From Planctomycetota bacterium (GTDB lineage: Bacteria > Planctomycetota > UBA1135): DNA of 64,000 nucleotides. The position numbers were made by a program, and so were the translations under genes. The DNA is taken from contig JAPKBM010000002.1 in the NCBI GenBank assembly GCA_026421205.1, positions 1 to 64,000 on the forward strand. The letters run 5' to 3'. The notes under the pieces were generated by a model. The model was not told the DNA's origin. It ran no database searches and saw nothing but the letters and a program-made list of their open reading frames with translations. Positions 6,679-39,735 of the stretch are shown piece by piece (the stretch's first letter is position 1; each line of letters opens with the position of its first letter).

Positions 6679-8372
6679 TAGATGTTCCTCGCGGTTTCCA
6701 GGGAATCTCCAAGTGTTTCTACAATTTCTTCCCGTGCTTCATCCGTGATTCCCAGGATTTCTTGCAGGCCGATGCCTACATGGGGAAGGTATTTTTCAAT
6801 ATAGGAACGTTTTTCAAATTCATTAGCCACCCGTTTATCTTTACGGATGTGTGCGCCCAACTTTCGTCCGGCATCTTGTAACGCCCGCTTTACTTCTTTC
6901 AGAATTTCATCATAAGGCGCAATCGCTTCTTTGGCTTCACTGGTAAAAGGAACCCAGACGCTGGCCATATGTACCAAAATGACGGCCGACCCAAGAGGCA
7001 TGGACCCCTTGGGTTGTTGTAAGCCGTAGCTTTTCCAAGATGTTTGTGTGACGGCTTTGGTGAACCCACAGCCAGATTGCTGAGAAAGCAAGGGGACACG
7101 GTTTGCAAAGCGCAACAAGCGAACCGGTTCATCGGCATTGCCTAAAAGGTTTTCCGTATCCACAGTTCCCCGCCGTTTTTTTGTTTTCTTGATTCTCCCG
7201 CGTTTGTCGACTTCCAGTTGATCCCCGCCGGGCTTTGCCCACGCAATGCCTACTTCAATTTGAAATGGGTTCCCTCGGTAAACGGAAGGAGGCCGGGTGG
7301 CCACCGCGTAAAAGTCGGCGTCGGTCTCTTTCATCAGACCTTCCGTAATCCGCTTTTCGCCGATGGGGGAAAGGCACGTGGTCGGCGGTGCCGAGATTTT
7401 TGTTTTTTGAATGGAGCGGTAAAGAGCGTCGGCTTCTTCCCGAGCAATGCGTGTGGGATAAGATTTTTCTCCTAAGCCAGCTTCTTTGATAATTTCCAAC
7501 GCTTTCTTCCGACCGACGCGGCAAAACTCTTCTTGAAGAAAGCCCACCAGCCATCGTGAGTTCGTTTCTCGCAACATACGGATGAGTTCACCCAGTTCCA
7601 CACCATAAGGGTGAGGTTTGATTTCCGCTGGACGATCCGGGACGACTTTGACCGCGCGCTCGTAAATCCGTGGCTCTTCGTCGTCGGGCGTGAGGTAGTG
7701 GAGCGTTGCGTGCGGGTTGGACACGGCGGTTTGCTTGATGTAATCATCCACCGACCGCAACCCGCGTTTGTAAGTAGCCTCAAGCTCTACTTCAAAGCGC
7801 GTCCCATGCTTTAGATGCCATTCTTTGAGCACGGCTTCTTTGGTAATCATGGGCTTATTTTTCGCCGAGTCCATCTGCAAGGTTAATGACTGCGGTTTCC
7901 CTCGTGTCGTTTTTGAAATAATTTTTGCGCCTTTCCCAGTTGTCATCTGAGCGTAGAGCAGCGCCGCAGAAATACCAATGCCCTGCTGTCCGCGGGATTG
8001 CCGTCGGCTATGAAATTTAGAACCATAAAGGAGTTTGCCGAAGATGTTTTGAATTTGCTCTTTGACGATGCCGGGGCCATTGTCCTCGATGACCACGCGA
8101 AAGCGGTCCTCTTCCACTTGGTGGATTTCAATGAGGAGGTCAGGGGCGATGCCAGCTTCCTCACAGGCGTCCAGAGAGTTGTCCACCGCTTCCTTGATGG
8201 TGGTTAAAAGAGCTTTTTGTTTGTTGTCAAAGCCCAAGAGATGGCGGTTCTTGGCAAAAAATTCAGAGACCGAGATCTCTTTTTGGTTTTTCGCCATTTG
8301 TTCCGCGGTAAGGTGTTTTGTAGCAGCCACGGGGTGATTTTGCCCTTTCCTGTGGATGGATTCCACTCTCAT
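6678..8372 (-). CDS. top6B: DNA topoisomerase VI subunit B (GHKL ATPase)
   Basis: ATPase subunit (564 aa from 8372) that dimerises on ATP and drives strand passage. The GHKL motifs are all present: N box [14 protein letters not shown] (Glu61, Asn65), G1 EDNGPGI (Asp97), G2 [11 protein letters not shown] (about 128-137). They are followed by an H2TH/transducer region and a C-terminal [16 protein letters not shown]. The N-terminal [17 protein letters not shown] is characteristic of Top6B. Start: ATG 8372 has CAGAAT 7 nt upstream, fitting the leaderless pattern of the window. GTG 8330 and ATG 8297 are alternatives and all keep the conserved core. First gene of a two-gene operon. Confidence 0.95.
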
Positions 8373-8404
8373 CGTGTCGATTCTGCGGAGTTTTTGAGCT
8401 TCTC

Positions 8405-8410
8405 TAAACT
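8405..8410 (+). promoter_or_regulatory. -10-like TAAACT
   Basis: TAAACT ends 10 nt before the ATG at 8421 of the transglutaminase-esterase gene. It is part of the recurrent TAnnnT-close-to-start pattern. No clear -35 is seen. Confidence 0.35.
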
Positions 8411-8420
8411 AGCCCTGCTC

Positions 8421-10577
8421 ATGATTGCATTCGCCCTGATGATTCTCCCCAGCCTCCAAGCGCCCCCTGCGGAGGACGCCTGGAAAAAGTCACGCCTCTC
8501 TCTTCCAGGAAACCAGCAAGTAGGGTTTGATTTTTTACTTGAGCATATGCCAGAAAAAGATCGGCAGGCTCTTTCCCCCAAGTGGTTGGTGGAACAATTG
8601 CAAACGGCTTATGCTACATGGGAAACCACACCATGGAAGGACCAAGTCCCTCAGGCCATATTTTTCAATGAAGTCCTTCCTTATGCCTCGGTGAATGAAC
8701 GCCGAGACACTTGGCGAAAAGATTTTCATCAACGTTTTGCTCCACTCATTCTGGATGCCAAAACTCCCTCGGAAGCGGCGGTTATTTTGAATCAACAAAT
8801 CTTTTCTTTGCTTAAAGTGAAGTACTCCACTCAAAGACCCAAGGCGGATCAAAGCCCGTTGGAGTCTATGGAGGCTGGTCTGGCCTCCTGCACAGGGTTG
8901 AGCATTTTGTTGGTGGACGCTTGTCGTTCTGTGGGTGTGCCCGCGCGTTTTGTGGGAACTCCGCTTTGGGCCGACGGAAGTGGCAACCACTCTTGGGTGG
9001 AAATCTGGGATGACGGTTGGCATTTCACAGGTGCCGCGGAGCCCACCGGGAACCAACTGAATCAAGCGTGGTTTACGGACCGTGCTTCCCAAGCGGTGCC
9101 TGAGGATAAAGAGCGTGCAATTTATGCGGTGAGTTACCGAGCCACACCACAACATTTTCCAATGGTGTGGGCACCCGACGCAGACTTCGTGCATGCGGTC
9201 AATGTGACACATCGGTATGTTCAAAAGCCTCCGGTGGCGGAGGGCTTTGCGCGTATTTTATTTTCAGCCTTGGATGGATCCGGTCAGCGGATTCCAGCTT
9301 CCATTGAACTCTTTGGGACCAAAGGGGAATTGCTTGCAGAAATAAAAACGCATGATGAAAGTCACGATGCCAATGACCACTTGACTCTTGATCTCCCGCT
9401 GGGGGTGCGCGCCGATGTCCGCATTCGTTGGGAAAAGCGGCATTTTCGCACGGTTTTCAAAGTGGTGGAAGATGAAACTCTTGTCGAAGCCGTTTTTTCT
9501 CAAGAGGTGGCAGTGCAAGTTCTTCAGCCCAATCAACGGCTCTGGCGCGCTCATCAAAGGAAATTACGGGAAACTCGTGCTAAAGAAATGGAAAACCGCG
9601 TCCTGCAATTCAAAGATTGGACCTTGCCTTTCTGGTGGACAGCGTTCGGCGAAAAACCCGTCGACGGATACAGTCTTTGGATTTCTCTTCATGGCGGGGG
9701 AGGGACGACGTCGGAAGTGAACGACGGCCAGTGGGAGAATCAAAAGAAGCTTTATGAGTTGAAGGAGGGGTTTTACCTGGCACCGCGCGCGCCGACCAAT
9801 ACTTGGAATCTTTGGCATCAAAGTCATATCGATGTTTTCTTGGACCGTCTCATTGAAAATATGGTGGCTCTTTATGGAGTGAACCCCAACAAGGTTTATG
9901 TTTTGGGTTATTCCGCGGGTGGCGATGGCGTGTTTCAGCTGGCACCTCGCATGGCAGACCGATGGGCCGCCGCAGGAATGATGGCCGGCCATCCCAATGA
10001 AACCAAGCCCGACGGTCTTCGGAATTTGCCTTTTACCCTTCACATGGGTGGGGAGGATGGGGCCTATGACCGCAATCAGCACGCGGTGCGTTGGAAAGAA
10101 GAGCTTGCGGCTTTGCACAAAGAAGACTCCGACGGCTACCCCCACTGGGCAGAGATTCATGCGGGGAAGGGGCATTGGATGGACCGTCAAGATGCCGCTG
10201 CACTTCCATGGATGGCCAAGTACACGCGCAACCTCCGCCCCGAGAAGGTGGTCTGGCTCCAAGATGATGTCACGCATTCCCGTTTTTATTGGTTGGCGGT
10301 GGAGCAACCCGTGCCCCGAAGTCGTTTGGTCGTTCAAAGGAAAGGGCAGACTTTCCAAGTTTTGGCTGCCGACGGCCTTTCGGAGTTCAAAATCCGTTTA
10401 GACGCGTCCATGGTGGATTTTTCCCAAGAAATTGTGGTTCAGCAGGGTGAGCGCATCCTTTTTCAAGGGGAAATCTCTCCTAGCATGGGGATTCGGCGAA
10501 AAACGCTCGCGGAACGAGGGGATCCTGATGGGATTTGGAGCGCAGAAATCACCGTGGTGATTCCCAAGGAAAAATAA
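8421..10577 (+). CDS. Secreted transglutaminase-like / alpha-beta hydrolase fusion
   Basis: 718-aa exported protein with two enzymatic modules. After a signal peptide (MIAFALMILPSLQAPPAEDA), a transglutaminase-core domain has ASCTGLS (Cys157), GNHSWVEIW (His190) and a possible third acid (Asp or Glu in WHFTGAAEP). A central beta-rich linker follows (about 270-400). The C-terminal half is an LpqC/PHB-depolymerase-like esterase with SLHGGGGT (oxyanion region), GYSAGGDG (nucleophile Ser near 497) and AGKGHW (likely His). Each domain family is known; together they suggest peptide or ester processing in the periplasm. ATG 8421 was chosen because the longer frame begins inside the divergent top6B gene. 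Confidence 0.82.
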   Translation: MIAFALMILPSLQAPPAEDAWKKSRLSLPGNQQVGFDFLLEHMPEKDRQALSPKWLVEQLQTAYATWETTPWKDQVPQAIFFNEVLPYASVNERRDTWRKDFHQRFAPLILDAKTPSEAAVILNQQIFSLLKVKYSTQRPKADQSPLESMEAGLASCTGLSILLVDACRSVGVPARFVGTPLWADGSGNHSWVEIWDDGWHFTGAAEPTGNQLNQAWFTDRASQAVPEDKERAIYAVSYRATPQHFPMVWAPDADFVHAVNVTHRYVQKPPVAEGFARILFSALDGSGQRIPASIELFGTKGELLAEIKTHDESHDANDHLTLDLPLGVRADVRIRWEKRHFRTVFKVVEDETLVEAVFSQEVAVQVLQPNQRLWRAHQRKLRETRAKEMENRVLQFKDWTLPFWWTAFGEKPVDGYSLWISLHGGGGTTSEVNDGQWENQKKLYELKEGFYLAPRAPTNTWNLWHQSHIDVFLDRLIENMVALYGVNPNKVYVLGYSAGGDGVFQLAPRMADRWAAAGMMAGHPNETKPDGLRNLPFTLHMGGEDGAYDRNQHAVRWKEELAALHKEDSDGYPHWAEIHAGKGHWMDRQDAAALPWMAKYTRNLRPEKVVWLQDDVTHSRFYWLAVEQPVPRSRLVVQRKGQTFQVLAADGLSEFKIRLDASMVDFSQEIVVQQGERILFQGEISPSMGIRRKTLAERGDPDGIWSAEITVVIPKEK

Positions 10578-10665
10578 AAGCAAGTTCCTTGTTGAGTAAA
10601 AGCGACTTCCTAGCCGAAGAGGAGGTGTCTGGTGTTGAGAAAAAGCACCCAGAAACACTATCCTC

Positions 10666-11295
10666 ATGCCTCTTCCTCGCAAAAAACCCTCACAGATTCA
10701 GGAGTCAAAGAACTCCGGAACTTCTTTTCAGACCACTGTTTACGAACAGGAAATAGAGCAATGGGAGGGCTTGGTTTGGTACGTGGTGAACAAGATCACC
10801 CCCCGGCTCCCTAACACGGTTTCCGAAGAGGAATTGCATGCTGCAGGAATGATGGGTTTGTGGAAGGCGACCCGCTCTTATGATGCCTCCAAAGGGGCAG
10901 AATTTAAGACCTACGCCTACCACAGAATCCGTGGGGCCGTGCTGGATGAGTTGCGCACTCTCGATTTCCTTCCGCGTTCCATGCGAGAGCGTGCCAAGCG
11001 TGACGGCATTGCCGCTCCTGCGGTCGTCGGGATTCCAGTGAACGAGGATGGTTCCGAGAGTCTCTCTGGTTGCAGGCGATCTTCTTCGGTAGAAAACGCT
11101 GATCTGCACGCTGCTTTGATGAAGGAGATGGAGGATCTCCCCGAAAAAATGCGCGCGGTGATGCATCTCTACTACCAAGAGGGGATGAAAATGCGTGATA
11201 TCGGTGAGCGTCTCAGCCTGACCGAGTCCCGCGTGAGCCAAATTCACGCCAACGCCATCGCCCGTCTCCGTCGATCTTTTCCGGAAGCCGCCTAG
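10666..11295 (+). CDS. FliA/WhiG-type RNA polymerase sigma factor
   Basis: 209-aa sigma-70 family protein of the FliA (group 3) kind. Region 2 runs from about residue 30 to 105 (LVWYVVNKITPRL, GMMGLWKATRSYD, FKTYAYHRIRGAVLDELR). Region 4 is at the C-terminus (YYQEGMKMRDIGERLSLTESRVSQIHANAIARLR, helix-turn-helix). Region 3 is shortened: FLPRSMRERAKR is present but the next 30 residues are low-complexity. No flagellar or chemotaxis gene and no obvious anti-sigma factor is adjacent. It may serve a non-flagellar regulon such as pili or envelope genes (inference). Confidence 0.88.
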   Translation: MPLPRKKPSQIQESKNSGTSFQTTVYEQEIEQWEGLVWYVVNKITPRLPNTVSEEELHAAGMMGLWKATRSYDASKGAEFKTYAYHRIRGAVLDELRTLDFLPRSMRERAKRDGIAAPAVVGIPVNEDGSESLSGCRRSSSVENADLHAALMKEMEDLPEKMRAVMHLYYQEGMKMRDIGERLSLTESRVSQIHANAIARLRRSFPEAA

Positions 11296-11332
11296 GTCGC
11301 AAGAGCCGGCTCCTTGTGCCAAGGAGTCTCAA

Positions 11333-11363
11333 CGCCTAAACTGCTTGCAATGCAGTTTAGGCG
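11333..11363. repeat. Perfect 12-bp inverted repeat over the M1 peptidase start
   Basis: Arms CGCCTAAACTGC (11333-11344) and GCAGTTTAGGCG (11352-11363) are perfect complements around a 7-nt centre. The left arm contains TAAACT, placed 7 nt before the ATG at 11350, and the ATG sits at the centre/right-arm border. No T-run follows, so a terminator for the sigma gene is unlikely. If the gene is leaderless the left arm is not transcribed, which favours a DNA operator over an RNA hairpin. Confidence 0.75.
11337..11342 (+). promoter_or_regulatory. -10-like TAAACT of the M1 peptidase gene
   Basis: TAAACT ends 7 nt before ATG 11350 and lies inside the inverted repeat 11333-11363, so a protein bound there would block the promoter. 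Confidence 0.4.
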
Positions 11364-13554
11364 TCATGTTTGGATTCTTCTGATGGTTTTGTGGGGCAGT
11401 GGCTTTTCCATGGCCGCCCAACTCCCCACGCAAAGCGCCAAGACGGTGCACTACGACATGACCGTGGCCATGCAAGCGGGCAGTTTCATGCTCACCGGCC
11501 AGGAACAAGTTACTTGGCGGAATCAAACTGAAGGGACGACGTCGGAATTGTTTTGGCACGTCTATAACAACGCGTGGGCCGGCCGAGATTCTGTTTGGAT
11601 GGTGGAGGCGCGTGGTTTTGAAGACGACAAGTTGCCTCGCGCTTGGGGAGAGACTCAAATTACGCACTTGGCCTTAGCTGATGGCACGAAGTTGCCGTGG
11701 AGTTGGGTGCCCCAAGAGAAAGCGCCCAACGATCGCACAGTTATGAAAGTGACGTTGCCGAAGCCCATCGGCCCTGGCGGGGAAGTCACGGTGCAATTGA
11801 ACTTCACCGCTCTTTTGCCACCCGCGTATCGACGAAGTGGTTGGGGAGAGAGTGGTTATATTCACGCCGTGCAGTGGTACCCAAAGTTAGGCGTTTTTGA
11901 GAAGACGGCCGACGGATTTTCTTGGAATTGCCCGCCCTATCATTACCTCTCTGAGTTTTATGCAGACTATGGGGATTACACCCTCAGTCTCACTTTGCCG
12001 GGAAATTACGCAGGGCACCTTGCTGCAACCGGGACTCTTGAAACTGAAACCGTAAACGCGGATGGCACCGTCACCGTCACCATGCATGCCGAAGACGTGC
12101 ATGACTATGCATGGACCGCCGACCCGAAAGCACTTTTTGAAACGCGCCGTTTTGACGCCGCGGATTGGCGGGATGAGGTGGAAGAAAGAAAGGTGGCTAT
12201 TGCATTGAACCGTACGGTGGAGGAAATTCGGCCTCGCGATGTAGAAATGATCCTCTTGTTGCAGCCAGAGCATGAAGAATACCGAGAGCGTTACTTTGAA
12301 GCGGTTGCCAAATCTCTTTATTACTTTGGCCTTTGGTACGGTGAATATCCTTACGAGACGATTACTTGTGTGGATCCGGCCAACGACGCGCGCGCAACGG
12401 GCGGGATGGAATATCCACGCCTCTTCACGGGCGGGGTGCATCGGGGGAATCATGAGCGCACGCTTTCTCCCGAAGGCATCACGGTGCATGAGTTTGGCCA
12501 TCAGTTTTGGTACGGCTTAGTTGGCAATGATGAATTTAATCACGCCTGGTTGGATGAAGGATTTAACACATTTTCTACCAATCGAATTCTTGCGAAAGCT
12601 TGGCCATTGGAGTTGCAAACGTATTCGGTTTTGGGCCATCAATACCCAGGTCGTGCTCCGCTTTCGTTACCTTCGTTTGGAGAATCCGACGCCCGCGCGT
12701 GGTTGACCTTGCAAAGTGCTTCGTTTCCGGAAACGCCTTGGACGGAGGCCACGGATTTTGCGTTGACAAAACGCACTTCCGTAGAGGGTTGGTTGCAAGA
12801 GATCCCCGTGGCTAGTTATCTTCCTGAAGTCACACGGAACCGGACGTTGGCTTTGTTGAACGCACACCACGGGGATTGGGGACAACCTTTGTCCACACCC
12901 ACGTGGAATATGGTGTCCAACCAACTGCGTCGTACCAATGCCTATAACCGACCTGCTTTGACTTTGGAAACGATGTCACGTTTGATGGGTGAGAACCGGT
13001 GGATCCGCCTCATGCGCGAATGGCATGAGACACAACGCTATCAACACCCCAAGCCAGAAGAGTTCCGAGGGTTGCTCTTGAAGCATGGAGAGGGCGTCGG
13101 TGTGGATTGGAATGCTTTTTGGCAGCAGGCCTATCACGGCAATCAACGCATGGATTTTAAAGTGGAGCGCGTGACTAACCGTTTGCTTGTGGAAGATCCT
13201 CGCGCCTTGGAAAAAGAAGATGGCTTGGCCGATGCCACCTGGAGAGTACGTGTGGAGGTTCGGCGCACGGGAGACTTTCAAGTTCCGGTAGAGATAGATA
13301 TTCTCTTCGCCGACGGTCTCTCCCAGCGACATACTTGGAATGGGGTGGGACCCGTTTGGGTGCATGAAGTTCCGGCTTCCACGGCCAAAGTCATGCGAGT
13401 GCTGGTGGATCCCGAGCAGAAGCTTATGTTAGAGAGGAATGCTTTGGATAACACTTGGATTATGGACCCAAGAGAATCGCGATCTTGGAATTTGAGTGTG
13501 CGCGCCATGATTTGGGCGCAACAAGTATTGCATTACTACGGAGGTCGAGGATGA
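11350..13554 (+). CDS. M1-family (gluzincin) aminopeptidase, exported
   Basis: 734-aa zinc peptidase. An N-terminal hydrophobic signal (HVWILLMVLWGSGFSMA) is followed by the M1 saddle domain. The substrate motif is GGMEYPRLF, replacing GAMEN. The catalytic zinc site is HEFGHQFW (about 380-387), with WLDEGFNTF giving the third ligand about 20 residues later. The C-terminal half is helical and ends YYGGRG. It probably trims peptides in the periplasm. The ATG at 11350 precedes the signal peptide; an in-frame TTG at 11314 also exists. It is coupled to the next gene by ATGA. Confidence 0.88.
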   Translation: MQFRRHVWILLMVLWGSGFSMAAQLPTQSAKTVHYDMTVAMQAGSFMLTGQEQVTWRNQTEGTTSELFWHVYNNAWAGRDSVWMVEARGFEDDKLPRAWGETQITHLALADGTKLPWSWVPQEKAPNDRTVMKVTLPKPIGPGGEVTVQLNFTALLPPAYRRSGWGESGYIHAVQWYPKLGVFEKTADGFSWNCPPYHYLSEFYADYGDYTLSLTLPGNYAGHLAATGTLETETVNADGTVTVTMHAEDVHDYAWTADPKALFETRRFDAADWRDEVEERKVAIALNRTVEEIRPRDVEMILLLQPEHEEYRERYFEAVAKSLYYFGLWYGEYPYETITCVDPANDARATGGMEYPRLFTGGVHRGNHERTLSPEGITVHEFGHQFWYGLVGNDEFNHAWLDEGFNTFSTNRILAKAWPLELQTYSVLGHQYPGRAPLSLPSFGESDARAWLTLQSASFPETPWTEATDFALTKRTSVEGWLQEIPVASYLPEVTRNRTLALLNAHHGDWGQPLSTPTWNMVSNQLRRTNAYNRPALTLETMSRLMGENRWIRLMREWHETQRYQHPKPEEFRGLLLKHGEGVGVDWNAFWQQAYHGNQRMDFKVERVTNRLLVEDPRALEKEDGLADATWRVRVEVRRTGDFQVPVEIDILFADGLSQRHTWNGVGPVWVHEVPASTAKVMRVLVDPEQKLMLERNALDNTWIMDPRESRSWNLSVRAMIWAQQVLHYYGGRG

Positions 13555-38443: not shown

Positions 38444-39735
38444 GTGATTTCTAGCAAACTTTTTTGCAAGAGTTGAATGGAATGAAGGAGAGCGGGATCG
38501 TGAGGAGGTTCTGGAAGGGACCGGTTCGGAAAATATTTTTGGATTGCAGCGCGGTACTGCAGGGGCGGAAGATCCGTCCGAAGCCAAGAACGCAATGCAA
38601 TAAGATCCAATGGGCTTGCCGTATGTACATCCGGTTCAAGCCCTCCAGGGAAGTCACTTTGAATATGACCTTCTAGGATTTTTCCCTGAGGGGAAAGGAA
38701 ATAGCCAGCGGTGAATTTCAAAATCCCTTTCTTGTCTGGGTACTGCTGAACTTTTTGAAAGACCCCTTTGCCGAAAGAGCGTTCGCCGACCAAAATGGCA
38801 GCCCCTCGGTCTCGAAGACAACTGGCCAAAACTTCGCTTCCTGAGGCACTATATCGATTGATGAGCACGACTAAGGGGAGCTCTTCTCCAAAAAAAACAG
38901 AGGGGTCGGCTTTCCGGATTCGGCGGTCGACATTTCTTCCTTTGAGCGTGCAAACCACTCCTCCCCGAATAAAACGTCCTGTGACAGCAACGGCCGTGTC
39001 GAGTAGTCCACCTGTGTTGAAACGCAAATCCAACACAAGGGCTTTGAGACCCTTGGCCTTGAGAGCGGCCAAAGCCGTATCAAGTTCTCTGGGCGTGGAT
39101 TTTGCGAATGCCCGAATGTGAAGGAGTCCAATCCCTTTTTCCGTGTCGAGGAGGGTAACTTTGCCAACCGTAGAAGAGGAAATAGGCTGTCGCTTGATGT
39201 TGACGTTATATTTCGTTTTATCGGGCCTTTGGAAGTCTAAGGAGACGGAGGCCCCGAGCTTCCCTTTGAGGGCAGGCCAAGATCTTCCAAAAACTCCCAA
39301 GTACCCATCGGCCTGGCCATCAACTTTCAAGAGCAAGTCACCTGGAAGAATGCCGGCTTTGGCCGCTGGGCTATCTGGGTAGGGGAAATAGACCCGCCCA
39401 TCTTCATTCATCTGGACACCAATTCCGACGCGCTCTCCGGAAGTGGTTTCTTCAAACTGCTGAAGGCCATCGGGCCCGATCCATTGTGTGTAGGGGTCTT
39501 GAAGTATTTCCACCATCCCAACGACTCCCGCTTGCAGTAATGCTTGAGGGTCTCGCAATTCCACATAATCTTCCGTGAGATAGCGGTGGACAGAGCTCAG
39601 AACTTGTTCTTCTTGTGTGAGGAAGGATCGGTCGAGCAAGGGGCCTAAAAAGGATTGTGCAATCAGGAATCCCAAACCTGTAACCCCAGCCCCCGTGAGG
39701 AGGCCGTAGGCGAATAGGCGGGCTGGCTTCGGCAT
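38440..39735 (-). CDS. C-terminal processing protease, S41 family
   Basis: 431-aa periplasmic protease. N-terminal membrane anchor (LLTGAGVTGLGFLIAQSFLG), a CPP helical domain (VVGMVEILQDPYTQWI), a PDZ domain (GIGVQMNEDGRVYFPYPDSPAAKAGILPGDLLLKVDG) and the catalytic core with NRYSASGSEVLA (Ser) and GERSFGKGVFQ (Lys). The last 60 residues are a helical tail. TAGAAT ends 6 nt before ATG 39735, so it leads the operon S41-tsaD-HEAT-carA. Substrates may be lipoproteins or cell-wall enzymes, as for Prc/CtpA (family knowledge). Confidence 0.92.
   Translation of the reverse strand: MPKPARLFAYGLLTGAGVTGLGFLIAQSFLGPLLDRSFLTQEEQVLSSVHRYLTEDYVELRDPQALLQAGVVGMVEILQDPYTQWIGPDGLQQFEETTSGERVGIGVQMNEDGRVYFPYPDSPAAKAGILPGDLLLKVDGQADGYLGVFGRSWPALKGKLGASVSLDFQRPDKTKYNVNIKRQPISSSTVGKVTLLDTEKGIGLLHIRAFAKSTPRELDTALAALKAKGLKALVLDLRFNTGGLLDTAVAVTGRFIRGGVVCTLKGRNVDRRIRKADPSVFFGEELPLVVLINRYSASGSEVLASCLRDRGAAILVGERSFGKGVFQKVQQYPDKKGILKFTAGYFLSPQGKILEGHIQSDFPGGLEPDVHTASPLDLIALRSWLRTDLPPLQYRAAIQKYFPNRSLPEPPHDPALLHSIQLLQKSLLEIT

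Follow-up and report, generated by a model that had tools for sequence, protein, structure and literature searches.

For the sigG gene of B. subtilis, a long hairpin was proposed that blocks the translation of RNA reading through from spoIIG and that cannot form in the transcript from the gene's own promoter (PMC5942855). Like the structure predicted here at the start of a peptidase gene, it would block a start on read-through RNA and is located just behind a sigma factor gene; in contrast, sigG has a leader and a ribosome binding site (PMC5942855), whereas at the present locus a -10 element is part of one arm and the start codon itself would be occluded. The likeness between the two genes is one of logic, and no homology is implied. 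Fold-back inhibition is known also for the transposase genes of IS10 and IS50, where RNA entering from outside covers the start by folding at an inverted repeat. The folding of incoming RNA over the start is shared with the present locus, but IS10 and IS50 are mobile elements, and nothing mobile was seen here. In phage T4, the late genes I-TevI, segB, soc and e have hairpins that hide the ribosome binding site on early and middle read-through RNA, but not on RNA from the late promoters (PMC2988022). These genes resemble the peptidase gene in that the fold is limited to read-through RNA and the own promoter is just upstream; unlike it, they are phage genes with Shine-Dalgarno sites and the hairpins have a role in timing (PMC2988022). 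For bacterial leaderless genes, the pattern TANNNT about 12 bp before the start has been published (PMC3160421). The peptidase gene has the same -10 spacing, whereas the published pattern is a genome-wide promoter pattern that does not include a hairpin (PMC3160421). A literature search that covered few subscription journals, and sources partly in excerpt, did not reveal a hairpin at a leaderless start with a -10 box in one arm. Compared with the sigG and T4 precedents, the putative leaderless start, the predicted occlusion of the start codon and the -10 box in the other arm set this locus apart.

The locus is located in a stretch of 64,000 nucleotides (the window), which is part of contig C72 of the assembly G000 (2.15 Mb, 96 contigs). 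The named relatives are Planctomycetota. A perfect inverted repeat of 13 + 7 + 13 nucleotides (11332-11364) was found between a sigma factor gene and the start of the peptidase gene. The features are:

10666 to 11295, plus strand: FliA/WhiG-like sigma factor gene, the presumed source of read-through (open reading frame; Pfam Sigma70_r2 and r4)
11308 to 11328, plus strand: small intergenic hairpin with a 9-bp stem including one G-U pair, a 3-nt loop and no T-tract, which overlaps the putative -35 element
11314 to 11319, plus strand: putative -35 element TTGTGC, 17 bp before the -10 element (from the sequence)
11320 to 11382, plus strand: extended read-through hairpin with 25 predicted pairs (-28.9 kcal/mol), made of the 13-bp stem and an interrupted lower stem
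11332 to 11344, plus strand: left arm, ACGCCTAAACTGC, which holds the -10 element
11337 to 11342, plus strand: -10 element TAAACT, 7 nt before the ATG, with its first T 13 nt before the ATG
11345 to 11351, plus strand: loop TTGCAAT, which includes the A and T of the ATG at 11350
11350 to 13554, plus strand: M1-family peptidase gene with a signal peptide and presumably a leaderless mRNA (open reading frame and Pfam)
11352 to 11364, plus strand: right arm, GCAGTTTAGGCGT, made of the G of the ATG and peptidase codons 2-5

The first-pass annotation had described the repeat as 12 + 7 + 12 bp without a mismatch. The absence of mismatches was confirmed, but the arms are one bp longer, i.e., 13 bp. 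Its placement of TAAACT in the left arm, 7 nt before the ATG, and of the ATG at the edge of the repeat center was borne out, the G being the first base of the right arm. When the window was scanned for arms of at least 10 bases and spacers of 3-15, no other inverted repeat with arms longer than 10 was found, and there was one additional 10-mer. Simulation of 20 first-order Markov sequences as long as the window gave on average 0.75 repeats with ten-base and 0.1 with eleven-base arms, and none with arms longer than 11. An Rfam search of positions 10500-11600 yielded no match up to E 1. Stems between the two genes are apparently present also in several relatives, comparable to the small hairpin at 11308-11328.

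The peptidase scored 25.6 bits against Pfam Peptidase_M1, just below the gathering score of 27.7. The gene was found in 25 of the 26 genomes of the family, and 24 starts were used; the one of G013 was left out, because there is no in-frame ATG after its TAAACT. All 24 peptidase starts that were placed have a TAnnnT motif 5-7 nt ahead of the ATG, which is partly due to selection because the starts were picked by eye. In the nearest relative, L049, TTGAGG is found with the same spacing in place of the -35 element TTGTGC. At the level of the genome G000 (276 first ATGs, about 381 kb), TAnnnT peaked at a gap of 6 nt with 20 cases, compared to about three per position farther upstream. The peptidase gene is thus very probably leaderless, its 5' end being deduced from the spacing of the -10 element. 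A leaderless gene had already been considered in the first-pass annotation, and the spacing in the family as well as in the genome speaks well for it. If the gene is leaderless, the left arm is missing from its own mRNA, because transcription starts at the ATG.

The upstream gene had been annotated as a FliA-type sigma gene, and this assignment was upheld by TIGR02479 as the best NCBIfam match (157 bits, yet under its cutoff of 189.6). Its stop is located 54 nt upstream of the peptidase start and ends 36 nt before the left arm. A sigma gene was directly upstream of the peptidase gene in 23 of the 25 family genomes with a peptidase; the two exceptions are L006, a contig without an upstream gene, and G013, which has no sigma gene at this place. 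The gap was 9-86 nt at all 23 measurable junctions and was very short in several genomes, such as both g13 species (9 nt) and three g4 species (24 nt). In the fetched loci from outside the family, the search for the sigma gene gave no match. The G013 locus, L043, is the sole family member without a sigma gene adjoining the peptidase; TAAACT is present, but the next ATG is out of frame, so that the start or the assembly differs there. In the window, the sigma gene is preceded by a gene for a large protein (8217-10577) with a transglutaminase-like domain (Pfam PF01841), while the rest of the protein is for the most part without a clear Pfam match.

Both arms were predicted to pair over the translation start in RNA that enters from the sigma gene, and the -28.9 kcal/mol of the fold correspond to a z-score of -6.2. 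In a sample of 73 leaderless-type starts from G000 it ranked first in structure; the next had a z-score of -2.0. The mean of the 73 starts was +0.29, and structure as a general trait of leaderless starts was rejected for this genome. The predicted cost of keeping positions -12 to +15 open was 22 kcal/mol for the read-through RNA, whereas 90 controls treated as read-through RNA had a mean of 7.7 and a maximum of 17.8 kcal/mol. For the leaderless RNA, the cost of keeping +1 to +15 open was 3.5-4.7 kcal/mol. Only the read-through RNA can fold in this way, because the leaderless mRNA would lack the left arm.

We think it rather probable that the repeat is an RNA element that tells two transcripts apart and shields the peptidase gene from the preceding sigma gene. 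RNA reading in from the sigma gene would carry both arms and form a stable hairpin, the hairpin would hide the start codon, and no peptidase would be made from read-through RNA. In one related genus, g10, this position resembles an intrinsic terminator, at which the incoming RNA would end. The gene's own promoter, with its -10 element inside the left arm, would produce an RNA that begins at the ATG, cannot fold without the left arm and would be translated as a leaderless mRNA. What we infer is that read-through RNA exists, where the own transcript begins and how translation is affected.

Two further starts were noted. The start at 39735 of the window (minus strand) is of the leaderless type and has a 7-bp repeat, GAATAGG / CCTATTC with a spacer of 20, between the -10 region and early codons; its z-score is only -1.0, roughly the chance level among so many starts. 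The start at 9096 of L133 (minus strand; genome G023) belongs to another gene, is also leaderless-type and was, with a z-score of -3.3, the second most structured of 91 sampled starts.

The family was then compared. In L049 the peptidase is 80% identical in the best stretch, and the locus has GCCTAAACTGC and GCAGT in common with the window, while the outer right arm is absent. The first-pass annotation had named a lack of conservation in close relatives, with conserved flanking DNA, as a refutation; by this standard the repeat sequence is not conserved, as the nearest relative retains, besides the left arm, 5 bp of the right one. The predicted pairing of promoter and start codons, however, often recurs in relatives with other sequences. 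At the corresponding position, L049 was predicted to form a hairpin that is bulged and less stable (-12.7 kcal/mol; z-score of the region -1.5). In the three species of genus g10, a stem of up to 15 bp surrounds the ATG (z -5.0 to -7.3), and the six species of genus g4 had z-scores of -1.3 to -4.3. The structured starts (labeled "hairpin": g1, g4, g9, g10) did not form one clade, but required four changes on the tree, into which L049 was entered by the part after its N run; repeated gain, loss or turnover thus has to be assumed. Covariation among the relatives was slight. The computation itself shows the repeat, the conserved succession of the sigma and peptidase genes, the distance of the -10 element from the ATG, and an occlusion of the start that is predicted here and again in relatives.

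Several controls were used to evaluate this recurrence. The p-values for RNA pairing are optimistic, because the measure (pairing with G-U) was chosen after the exact-repeat data, and they ignore relatedness, save in the chimera test, for which one start per group was drawn. The groups were 16, i.e., 15 genera with the g11 members L039 and L049 kept separate, and control starts were picked by the rule ATG with TAnnnT. With this reservation, the mean folding z-score was -1.92 for the peptidase starts (n=23; L061 was left out, because it contains N) versus +0.42 for 32 other starts from these loci (p 1.5e-6). The number of pairs across the start distinguished peptidase from control starts less clearly (p 0.011). 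The GC-corrected opening cost exceeded the control fit at 22 of 24 starts, on average by 9.2 kcal/mol (109 controls, p 6e-11). Own promoter and start halves reached -10.1 compared to -5.5 (sd 0.68) for cross-genus chimeras, none of 2000 chimera sets being as good, although chimeras mix base compositions and are thus biased toward own pairs. When g1, g10, g4 and g11 were removed, 5 of 2000 were as good. The structures were more stable as sense than as antisense RNA by +3.35 kcal/mol (p 4e-4), while the controls showed the opposite (1.8).

Shuffling of codons gave a weaker result. At the 0.05 level, 7 of 24 starts were significant after codon-order and 8 of 24 after synonymous-codon shuffling, namely those of the window, L015, g10 and part of g4. 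The combined p-values for the 16 groups were 8e-4 (codon order) and 0.028 (synonymous codons), without the window 0.006 and 0.11, and without g1, g10, g4 and g11 0.11 and 0.49, respectively. The strongest evidence within the family comes from three or four of the 16 groups, and the rest is weak. Because the codon-shuffle results are weak outside of a few groups, a family-wide function of start occlusion is suggestive at most.

The alternative that survives best, albeit an unlikely one, is that the repeat is a neutral product of template switching during replication, by which a short older dyad (ACTGC...GCAGT) was extended, with the left arm as the template for the right one and without any regulation, the copied stretch being part of a signal peptide that is tolerant of change. 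Perfect stems can result from template switching (PMC8794818), and L049 shares the left arm with the window but, of the right arm, no more than GCAGT. In addition, the family-wide excess of exact-match inverted repeats, which also speaks for template switching, is due mainly to g10, L049 and the window. When each group was represented by a single start and both the window and L049 were omitted, the observed mean was reached by 35 of 1000 codon shuffles and 13 of 1000 base shuffles. Template switching explains neither why start occlusion is predicted again in relatives with different sequences nor why the sense strand is preferred. The perfect arms in the window may nevertheless have arisen by template switching and possibly were then kept as a hairpin.

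It was also considered, as a decidedly improbable case, that the structure is an element at the 3' end of the sigma mRNA, i.e., a terminator or a stabilizing hairpin, and that its overlap with the peptidase start is incidental. This reading is favored by g10, in which a 15-bp stem with a 4-nt loop, followed by TTCTTTTTT, extends over the peptidase start and the signal-peptide codons (L046:4963-4996, and likewise L055 and L044). Judged from its sequence, this stem with T-tract resembles an intrinsic terminator placed within the signal-peptide codons of the next gene. L044 has the same tail and one bulge in the stem, and was thus missed by the exact-stem rule. The terminator rule was satisfied by only 2 of 24 junctions (L046 and L055), and between the sigma stop and the peptidase of the window no terminator-like site was found. 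An intrinsic terminator was rejected for the window because no T-tract follows the stem.

Very little probability was given to a DNA operator, at which a dimeric regulator would bind two half-sites over the -10 box and repress the peptidase gene. The position over the -10 box, the perfect symmetry and the distance of 20 bp between the arm centers, about two helical turns, would fit such a site. The first-pass annotation had suggested a search for further half-sites. The exact half-site was present only in the two arms in the whole 2.15-Mb genome, and an operator of a regulon was therefore rejected. With up to one mismatch, seven sites including the two arms were found in the genome, compared to 18 for the reversed control pattern; with up to two mismatches, the window contained 9 matches versus 4.6 expected, and 4 of 100 shuffles had as many. 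Moreover, only 5 bp of the right arm were retained in L049, the symmetry center varies between lineages, and the structures of the relatives are more stable in sense than in antisense RNA. The first-pass annotation had put operator and hairpin as alternatives that depend on where transcription starts. Of these two, the operator was dropped, and the hairpin over the start is better supported by the predicted fold and its recurrence in relatives; leaderlessness does not belong to the operator reading alone, as it would allow the gene's own mRNA to escape the hairpin. Least probable of all is translational coupling, in which the hairpin would be opened by ribosomes that reach the end of the sigma gene, with peptidase made in proportion, as the very short gaps in g13 and g4 might suggest, because in the window the sigma stop is farther from the arm than a terminating ribosome usually reaches and the peptidase has its own promoter.

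Taken together, the reading of the repeat as an RNA element that distinguishes the gene's own transcript from read-through RNA can tentatively be extended to the family, although this extension has somewhat less than an even chance. A composite of about 35-60 nt would then combine the -10 element of a leaderless gene, one half of a silencing or terminating hairpin and the first signal-peptide codons, and would keep packed genes apart. Several lineages would have built it anew from unrelated sequences, so that selection would keep the architecture and not the sequence. If this is true, leaderlessness would be an easy way to tell the own transcript from that of a neighbor, as the arm upstream of the ATG is omitted by the choice of the start site, and the element would serve as a compact insulator in genomes with densely packed genes that rarely rely on Shine-Dalgarno sequences.
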